Origin: Gluconacetobacter asukensis
Lineage (GTDB): Bacteria > Pseudomonadota > Alphaproteobacteria > Acetobacterales > Acetobacteraceae
Direction: 5' to 3'
Assembly: GCF_014174375.1 (NCBI RefSeq)
Contig: NZ_JABEQE010000005.1
Location: 62,001-126,000, forward strand
Length of the DNA: 64,000 nucleotides
Made by a program: the position numbers and the translations under genes. Shown here piece by piece: positions 41,007-62,503 of this stretch. Position 1 is the first letter of the stretch; every line of letters starts with the position of its first letter. The notes under the pieces are model-generated. The model saw only the letters and a list, made by a program, of their open reading frames with translations. It made no database searches and had not been told where the DNA came from.

Positions 41007-41038
41007 CGCCGGGCGTGGGGGAACCCCCACGCCCGGCG
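41007..41038 (+). terminator. rpsD terminator hairpin
   Basis: A perfect 15-bp stem (CGCCGGGCGTGGGGG and its complement) with an AA loop, 28 bp after the rpsD stop. GTCCGCATTTT follows. Confidence 0.85.
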
Positions 41039-41047
41039 TCCGCATTT

Positions 41048-41211
41048 TAAGCCGGGCCGGACAGGCGGTCTGGCGGCGATCCGACGCGCGTTTCCTGCGC
41101 TTCGGTGCTCACGGCCCAAAAGGCCGCTCCGCTCCGATGCTCGGAAACGCACGACGGGCGTGCCGCTTCGCGGCACTCTCGCTCACCAGACCGCCTGTCC
41201 GGCCCGGCTTA
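41048..41211. repeat. Long intergenic inverted-repeat element, copy L1
   Basis: Perfect 26-bp arms (41048-41073 and 41186-41211) enclose a 112-bp core. The core starts with CGGCGATCCGACGCGCG and includes GTTTCC/GGAAAC, a GGCC/GGCC stem, GCTCCGCTCCGATGCTCGG and the hairpin GTGCCGCTTCGCGGCAC. The core recurs at 54.4 and 62.3 kb; the arms do not. Small ORFs across it are by-products. It lies between rpsD and prfC. Confidence 0.9.
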
Positions 41212-54011: not shown

Positions 54012-54377
54012 ATGCTGGCCACGTTCCGCACCAGCCTGTTTCCGCTCCTGGCCGGCTTCTGCCTGCTTGCCGCCCCTGCCCTCGCCGCTCCCGGCGACCC
54101 GGCCAGCAAGCAGCCCACGCAGGAAGAAGGTGTCGAAGCCCAGCACGGCGAAGACATGACCGTTCAGGGTCGCCGCAGCCTGCCGCCCGGATATCAGGAC
54201 GCCCCGTCGATGGACATGACCCACGGGCCCGACCCGGACCACGAGGCCAACGTCCATCGCGACTCCGTCACCGGCACTGACCTCTCACGCTTCGGCAGCG
54301 CCTATCAGAGCAGCAGCCCCTACGGCCAGGGCCAGCTCGGCGATGCCACCGGCAACGGCTGGGTCACCCCCCGCTGA
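54012..54377 (+). CDS. Small exported protein of unknown function
   Basis: A 121-residue protein with a clear signal peptide (hydrophobic about residues 8-22, cleavage near ALA|APG). The mature part is short, polar and probably disordered, containing GRRSLPPGYQDAPSMDM and GSAYQSSSPYGQGQLGDATG. No family recognised. GGAAGGA is a good ribosome site. The stop codon is inside the left arm of long repeat L2. Confidence 0.75.
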   Translation: MLATFRTSLFPLLAGFCLLAAPALAAPGDPASKQPTQEEGVEAQHGEDMTVQGRRSLPPGYQDAPSMDMTHGPDPDHEANVHRDSVTGTDLSRFGSAYQSSSPYGQGQLGDATGNGWVTPR

Positions 54378-54537
54378 GGCCATTTGCAAAGCCGCTCTGC
54401 TGGCGATCCGACGCGCGTTTCCTGCGCGTCGGTGCTCACGGCCCACAAGGCCGCTCCGCTCCGATGCTCGGAAACACACGACGGCCGTGCCGCTGCGCGG
54501 CACTCTCACTCAGCAGACCGGCTTTTCAAACGGCCTC
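54376..54537. repeat. Long intergenic inverted-repeat element, copy L2
   Basis: Arms of 26 bp (54376-54401 and 54512-54537, three mismatches) enclose a core nearly identical to L1: GGCGATCCGACGCGCGTTTC, GGCCCACAAGGCC, GCTCCGCTCCGATGCTCGG and the hairpin GTGCCGCTGCGCGGCAC, in which only the loop differs from L1. The arms are unrelated to those of L1. It lies between convergent genes. Confidence 0.9.
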
Positions 54538-54559
54538 TGGGAGAGCCTGACCGCTCAGC

Positions 54560-62232: not shown

Positions 62233-62249
62233 GACCGATCCCTGGCTCA

Positions 62250-62412
62250 GAGCCTGACTGGAAAATGCGGGCTGGCGAGCGAGAGCGGCCCGCAGGGCCG
62301 CGCCCGGCGTGTGTTGCCGAGCATCGGAGCGGAGTGGCCTTGATGACAATGAGCACCGAAGCGCAGGCAACGCGCGCTGGATCGCCGCCAGCGCGTATTT
62401 TCGGTCAGGCTC
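62250..62412. repeat. Long intergenic inverted-repeat element, copy L3 (inverted orientation)
   Basis: Arms at 62250-62276 and 62387-62412 match with few differences. The core read on the minus strand follows L1/L2 but with paired changes: GTTGCC/GGCAAC instead of GTTTCC/GGAAAC, and GCGGCCCTGCGGGCCGC instead of GTGCCGCTTCGCGGCAC. It fills the gap between scpB and tatB. Confidence 0.88.
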
Positions 62413-62503
62413 TCAGACTTGGACATTAAAACGGACCCAGACATGGCATGACGCGAACCGCGCGCCGGCACGCGCCGACATGCGCGGAAAGGATGGACAC
62501 CTA

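Follow-up and report, generated by a model that had tools for sequence, protein, structure and literature searches.

Integron attC sites follow the stop codon of a gene in a fixed orientation, fold on the antisense strand, and keep their structure over their sequence. RIME1 is a palindromic mosaic repeat of rhizobial intergenic regions. Among insertion sequences (IS), IS1031 represents a type of the IS5 family and is associated with duplication of a TNA target. Quasipalindrome correction denotes template switching from one arm of an imperfect palindrome to the other. The bacterial miniature elements (MITEs) listed in PMC3733652 include RUP, NEMIS, Bcr1, ERIC, YPAL, Nezha, and EFAR, and the same source describes the termini of GTAG REPs as often supplying the stop codon of flanking ORFs (PMC3733652).

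The window analyzed here is a 64,000-nucleotide stretch of contig C5 from the Gluconacetobacter asukensis genome (G000; 4.39 Mb in 64 contigs). It carries three copies of a non-coding, dispersed element of about 143-174 nt, designated L1, L2, and L3. The covariance model R1, built on 27 copies from the same genome, recovers all three where the original prediction had placed them (Table 1). L3 is oriented opposite to L1 and L2, and the strand assigned to L1 is antisense to the core as originally described. The folding energies of the two L1 strands are −135.5 and −122.9 kcal/mol. A pattern of 20 fixed core letters matches L1 and L2 and gives zero matches in 100 shuffles, which makes chance an unlikely source of the common core; L3 is not matched, its core differing at those letters. 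The L1 arms are perfectly complementary, as was claimed, and three bases of the arm at the low-coordinate end differ in the sister genome G007. Only L2 adjoins a gene-like stop: its end overlaps the TGA at 54375-54377, which closes a plus-strand ORF open for 139 codons. The frames that end at L1 and L3 fall short of gene-likeness under the same cut. A separate terminator-like hairpin (41007-41038) and a T-run (41045-41048) directly precede L1, and both also occur in relatives that lack L1.

Table 1. Positions of the element copies and associated features within the 64,000-nucleotide window; the strand is the better-folding one.
Feature	Position	Strand	Observation
L1, full element	41048..41211	(−)	R1 match of 182 bits at C5:103048-103211
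L1 arm, one side, 25 nt	41049..41073		Exact complement of 41186-41210
L1 arm, other side	41186..41210		Identical in G007
L2, full element	54375..54538	(−)	R1 match of 179 bits at C5:116375-116538
L3, full element	62249..62413	(+)	R1 match of 167 bits at C5:124249-124413
CTCAGA, left direct-repeat copy at L3	62246..62251		6-bp overlap of flank alignments at empty sites
CTCAGA, right direct-repeat copy at L3	62412..62417		Same empty-site comparison

The family is real and large, with relatives in several alphaproteobacterial groups. Searching the genome and its relatives for further copies yields at least 138 in the G000 contigs at E ≤ 1e-4, a lower bound in that the best 150 of 6822 candidates were scored. 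Nine of the 138, every one below 70 bits, were left out of the sequence set, leaving 129 copies, of which 112 were aligned and 109 taken for arm counts. G007 has 98 copies at E ≤ 1e-8 by the same model, and BLAST finds the family in 13 of 13 genus relatives (best 14 candidates scored per genome). Across the bacterial family, the model is positive in 29 of 150 genomes, own included, spread over 23 of 102 genera (best 19 candidates per genome); a class-wide draw gives 6 positives among 289 genomes, again counting our own. With a Sphingobium plasmid copy as the query, 29 plasmid records match at E ≤ 0.01, and 16 of these span at least 80% of it. Sphingobium accounts for 12 records and Shinella for 6; Phyllobacterium, Agrobacterium, Rhizobium, Ensifer, Bosea, and Aminobacter are among the further hosts, and Klebsiella contributes one weak match. 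Among named genomes, an exact 62-letter core pattern is confined to two contigs of Gluconacetobacter dulcium and one of G. tumulicola. The phage collection holds no family match at E ≤ 1e-5. With more than 100 copies in one genome and several orders represented, the family offers natural replicates for separating selection, arm correction, and copy-to-copy conversion.

Several features of the distribution are recorded here for themselves. Contig C1, 12% of the genome, carries 40 of the 138 own copies (p = 1e-7, tandem units counted singly). Tandem arrays occur at G011:C1:961922-962719 and also at L104, L115, and L103; the G011 array has five units spaced about 158-161 bp apart, four of which miss the outermost part of one arm. 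An IMG/VR contig filed as viral (L031) contains three tandem copies at 1959-2439, and a distant copy (L304:1117-1645) lies about 40 nt past a tmRNA gene.

The family is apparently nameless, judged on Rfam and open-licence papers: no name for it was found in Rfam, searched with a few copies, or in the open-licence literature, and the original statement that no named element was known to behave in this way stands after both searches. No Rfam family reaches its gathering threshold at a copy in the whole window, in three further searched loci, at L1, or in nine distant loci. The models that do reach threshold are tRNA and tmRNA only, at positions outside the element, and the ncS011 alignment inspected is poor. 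Rfam families are accordingly rejected as candidates, with no model above threshold inside the element.

The ends of a repeat are usually retained and its middle lost. In this family, the arms go on pairing although their sequence is largely free. Watson-Crick pairing between arms is 0.84 within copies vs 0.64 when arms are exchanged among the 109 copies (largest value 0.66 in 200 shuffles). Copies differ more in the arms than in the core: among 92 well-paired own copies, pairwise distances average 0.33 and 0.31 in the arms and 0.18 in the core. Scored against the commonest pair in the 109 copies, the arm-pair cells comprise 431 two-sided changes that still pair, 146 one-sided changes, and 202 broken pairs. 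The same behavior extends across genomes. We fitted 29 rows to the covariance model, namely 27 copies from other genomes or records and one own copy, with one copy doubled (L289 +, on the wrong strand). In this alignment 95.8% of cells pair, vs 70.8% after shuffling and 34-41% when the structure is slid; two-sided changes occur at 55 of 64 pairs and at all 18 outer-arm pairs, and cells changed on both sides number 403, whereas shuffling gives 100.5 and sliding 47-72. When 27 own copies are aligned with MAFFT, the structure, which was derived from those same copies, shows 97.9% pairing and 163 two-sided cells vs 42.5 shuffled. Covariation is not confined to the ends: internal helices 3, 4, 6, and 7, distant from them, covary, as do apical helices with short loops. 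The apical part is kept in sequence across alphaproteobacterial orders, and the arms are kept mainly as pairs.

The original prediction described the arms as copy-specific and self-complementary. Self-complementarity is borne out by the pairing values, and the arm distances agree with variation between copies. The arms are not, however, unrelated: the motif GAGNCYG is present at both ends in 32 of 109 copies (left end 47, right end 38), and many arms derive from a common IS-like end that diversifies via paired changes. The arms of several copies are unlike any IS end. A few copies have arms that depart from the consensus; C1_276586 (L171), for example, has long perfect arms of this kind, and it is found in the sister genome too (L274 of G007). 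Selection for a foldback at the ends, one of the two readings first proposed, is supported insofar as pairing persists as sequence drifts, with a mutational, non-selective origin of the paired changes as its rival. Complementarity does not continue past the ends of the element (95 well-paired copies of 111), and a general tendency of the palindrome to extend into host DNA is rejected for that reason. At C1_7301 (L120), the partner of one G000 arm is sequence that falls beyond the element in G007, where the arms (L213) are ordinary.

The body of the element is a single long branched hairpin that is conserved on one strand. That strand folds better in 27 of 27 own copies, by a mean of 17.9 kcal/mol, and in all 28 of the cross-genome set (mean 17.1 kcal/mol), from which the doubled row was omitted; under DNA parameters, 27 of the 28 keep the preference. 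The cross-genome set contains 117 G-U cells vs 10 A-C cells. Recent one-sided changes at 26 low-divergence orthologous loci divide equally, with 22 exchanging Watson-Crick and G-U pairs and 22 exchanging Watson-Crick and A-C pairs, and thus give no support for strand-specific selection acting now. The family as a whole shows this asymmetry, which is distinct from a demonstrated current pressure and is compatible with RNA and with single-stranded DNA. The mRNA of an adjoining gene carries the weaker-folding strand. Because the better-folding strand is antisense to that gene, a simple role in its 3′ UTR is disfavored.

About half of the copies examined start at the stop codon of a neighboring gene, in one orientation. 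With left and right taken along the better-folding strand and genes called by a home-made GC3 method, 56 of 108 copies have a gene-like ORF on the opposite strand that stops no more than 3 nt from their right end, and three have one at the left end. Weaker, non-gene-like ORFs add 11 on the right and 6 on the left, so that any ORF of at least 100 codons stops within 3 nt at 67 right and 9 left ends (p = 4e-12). Test points moved outward give 0-3 on the right and 1-5 on the left. These shifted controls alone do not answer the concern that proximity to a stop is spurious. A stop-like triplet is part of the target, and GC-rich DNA abounds in long open frames, so right-end triplets were compared with matched background triplets, and this comparison does answer it. 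Right ends bearing TCA close an ORF of at least 100 codons in 41 of 44 cases (35 gene-like), vs 15.9% of 1376 TGA, 15.4% of 475 CTGA, and 25% of 40 CTGAG occurrences in the window. The preference holds for copies with no neighboring copy within 400 bp (stop at the right in 52 of 78, at the left in 9, all ORFs counted). The right neighbor lies on the opposite strand with its 3′ end facing the element for 90 of 125 copies, and its stop is within 5 nt in 53 of those 90; a left neighbor on the same strand accompanies 57 of the 125, with 3 stops within 5 nt. The right-end stops are TGA (54), TAG (8), and TAA (5). A CTNAG-like target should place C before TGA, and C does stand there in 50 of the 54, vs 45 of 73 in the background.

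The placement recurs elsewhere. Of 29 copies taken from 24 further genomes or records, 21 have a stop near the right end and 3 near the left, counted from −6 to +11 nt for ORFs of at least 60 codons with no gene-likeness filter; shifted points give 1-2 of 26-27 on the right and 1-6 of 29 on the left. In annotated plasmid records from Sphingobium and Shinella, a gene on the opposite strand stops at the right end. The Novosphingobium record has a stop within a few nucleotides of that end, the one from Allorhizobium has a stop near it at an approximate position, and the Phyllobacterium record has no gene stop there; the Ensifer record is unannotated at this point. Many host mRNAs could be affected by such placement.

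The element moves, or has moved, in the manner of a mobile one, being absent from orthologous sites in relatives and flanked at filled L3 by a short direct repeat. L3 is filled in G000 and G007. The sequences read from G004, G010, G005, and G001 are empty there, with a single CTCAGA and no arms, and G006 has the same two-piece match as judged by coordinates. The filled site bears CTCAGA at both ends, which is consistent with duplication of TCA within a CTNAG-like target. L1 is likewise filled in G007; G004, G010, and G005 lack it and have a different spacer. Near the L1 site, G001 has a derivative of about 60 bp with IS-like ends (L112, G001:C3:96500-99800), which looks like the two arms with little of the core left. 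At L2, the aligned flanks are 49 bp apart in G010 and G005, and G001 has a diverged full copy. Locus C3_171735 is empty in G007, with neither arms nor a clean duplication. Target duplication is therefore clean at L3 but weak overall: the same TNA occurs at both ends in 18 of 108 copies vs 10.6 after shuffling (largest 19), in a set of 108 cut by other rules than the one used for stop codons.

The ends of the element point to the IS5 family. In the genus, four loci with an IS5-family transposase over the cut-off (L121, L123, L133, and L134) were followed as far as both ends; all have GAG ends, and three of the four carry the same TNA at both. L121 ends in GAGCCCGATCCGAAAGT, L123 in GAGACTGTTTGGAAAAT and GAGCCTGTTTGGGAAAT, and L133 in GAGTCCGTTTGAGAATG and GAGCCTGTTTGAGAATG, of which L134 has close variants. 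Element copies in two genomes of one other genus start with GAGACCGTTTGAGAATG, sharing 16 of 17 letters with one IS end. In the 109 own copies, 56 left and 50 right ends match the best of five IS ends at 12 or more of 17 positions (shuffled, 1 of 109), a partial resemblance that falls short of identity and is absent in some copies. Distant copies match less well (L308, 9 of 17; L302, 11 of 17). The element is also short, multicopy, and bounded by terminal inverted repeats, as an IS5-family MITE would be. From the resemblance of its arm ends and TNA-type target to the full IS5-family elements of the genus, we infer that a host transposase of this family, IS1031-like, would move the element in trans. 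BLAST at one setting did not find the core inside 30 IS5-type loci, which gives no support to an origin by internal deletion from an IS; a finer search returned three weak partial matches (42-55 nt, 75-79%) at L141, outside its transposase.

Change at fixed positions was followed at 40 loci filled in both G000 and G007, five of which were dropped for gaps, leaving 26 of low and nine of high divergence. In the low-divergence group, 78 of 3308 paired bases have changed vs 48 of 901 unpaired bases (p = 1.3e-5), and pair changes are one-sided in 66 cases and two-sided in 6. Recent changes show constraint and no strand bias. The nine remaining loci carry 16-39 substitutions and 1-12 two-sided changes, within flanks that are mostly 95-99% alike (88% on one side); two of the nine are tandem arrays, and at several the flank beside the left arm is also altered. 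Conversion, reinsertion, or fast paired change are possible at these loci. A donor search at ten discordant or selected loci found a near-identical copy in the same genome only for C1_460369 of G000, which has one difference from C3_250064. Some small distances in the G007 donor lists (2, 4, 6) probably reflect one locus delimited in two ways, and a donor may have been missed, the comparison covering 79 distinct G007 copies. In 41 stop-anchored copies, the left target duplicate matches at 49, 56, and 85% per base, and 974 of 1020 arm pairs still pair. Arm pairing therefore seems to outlast neutral decay, if every insertion made a duplication; otherwise, the argument is weaker.

The explanation that we favor, with the balance of judgment standing about even, is an IS5-like miniature element in which pairing rather than arm sequence is preserved and which is often kept at gene stops. 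Under it, an IS5-type transposase of the host would mobilize the element in trans, and many copies would be retained where one particular end adjoins a gene stop in a single orientation. Pairing may be needed for propagation of the element, or for its tolerance or function at gene 3′ ends, and damaged hairpins could be lost or else repaired through compensatory change, conversion between copies, or arm-to-arm template switching. The preserved pairing may reflect selection, correction, or another process. A plainer account takes the family for an ordinary miniature IS5-type element in which the arms are already matched at insertion, matched ends being needed for transposition, and the fold is a by-product, with different transposases and recombination between copies diversifying the arms. 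The IS-like ends, the target repeat at L3, the near-identical pair C1_460369 and C3_250064, and the tandem arrays would all follow, but covariation in helices 3, 4, 6, and 7, conservation across orders of the core and not the arms, arm pairing that seems to outlast the target duplication, and the slower change of paired than of unpaired bases make this account rather unlikely. To a similar degree, we doubt that the paired changes are mutational in origin, with template switching between arms during replication rewriting one from the other. Three bases, two of them neighbors, distinguish a single L1 arm between the sister genomes, and the palindrome is perfect in the G000 state, which may be the older or the younger of the two; the C1_7301 arm that pairs with sequence outside the G007 element would also fit. 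Against this, 6 two-sided vs 66 one-sided changes in 26 loci indicate that correction is not rapid, complementarity generally does not spread beyond the ends, and apical helices with short loops covary too.

The stop-codon placement raises the question of whether the element is mainly a regulatory or protective structure for the 3′ end of the host gene, with a REP/BIME-like role and mobility secondary. The one-orientation placement of 56 of 108 copies at a gene-like stop, its recurrence in other genomes, and the annotated Sphingobium and Shinella records favor such a role, which we nevertheless consider improbable: the weaker-folding strand would be the one found in the mRNA of the adjoining gene, close species differ in whether the element is present, and the U-run of an intrinsic terminator is lacking (1 and 2 of 109). 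Also improbable is a class-wide mobile element that would be recognized by the shape of one folded strand, with an apical hairpin site and arms that serve only to pair, and be placed at stops with the folding strand antisense. If recognition by structure were true, it would represent a new route of DNA mobility. The original suggestion that the core had inserted into the loop of old terminator hairpins is almost certainly wrong. L1 does start right after the T-run of a hairpin, but that hairpin is separate from L1 and is present in relatives that lack the element, and the arms have a common family consensus. The comparison with empty orthologous sites, the check originally proposed, contradicts it at L3 (G004, G010, G005, and G001) and at C3_171735, as no arms are present at either, and the stop of complementarity at the element ends also counts against it.

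Set beside described systems, the favored IS5-like element resembles the MITE class as characterized in PMC3733652, whose members are 70-300 bp, non-coding, foldable, multicopy, bounded by terminal inverted repeats, and found beside coding sequences. It departs from that class in arms that vary by paired changes around a middle that is constant across genera, in a strand-specific branched fold, in the preference of one end for stop codons, and in a core not found in an IS. RAYT-linked REP/BIME sequences, including GTAG REPs, are likewise numerous intergenic palindromes close to gene 3′ ends, but REPs are described as 20-40 bp long (PMC3733652), unlike the present family. No RAYT (Y1) transposase was found in 14 genus genomes or 24 family genomes, own included, with 5 of 14 control genomes positive, and a RAYT-type REP is rejected on this basis. 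Br-REP1 and Br-REP2 of Bradyrhizobium are comparable as alphaproteobacterial 3′ UTR repeats with stem-loops (PMC5082802), and they have no 10-mer in common with the 129 family copies. An intrinsic terminator is rejected for want of a U-run, which follows the hairpin in 1 and 2 of 109 copies on the two strands. RIME1 resembles the family in its description as an intergenic palindromic repeat. To our knowledge, placement at stops in fixed orientation with the folding strand antisense is otherwise known only from integron attC sites, which the family also resembles in its preserved pairing; unlike attC, it conserves the apical part and not the ends. The attC core sites RYYYAAC and GTTRRRY occur in none of 109 copies on either strand, and no integron integrase exceeds the cut-off in 21 genomes, where matches below it appear in 21 of 21 and in 14 of 14 controls; an integron attC site is rejected accordingly. 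Because derivation from an IS is not established and target duplication is weak, we do not class the family as a plain MITE. It is filed instead as a variant of the miniature-element kind, one with a strand-specific fold, varying paired arms, and a preference for stop codons.
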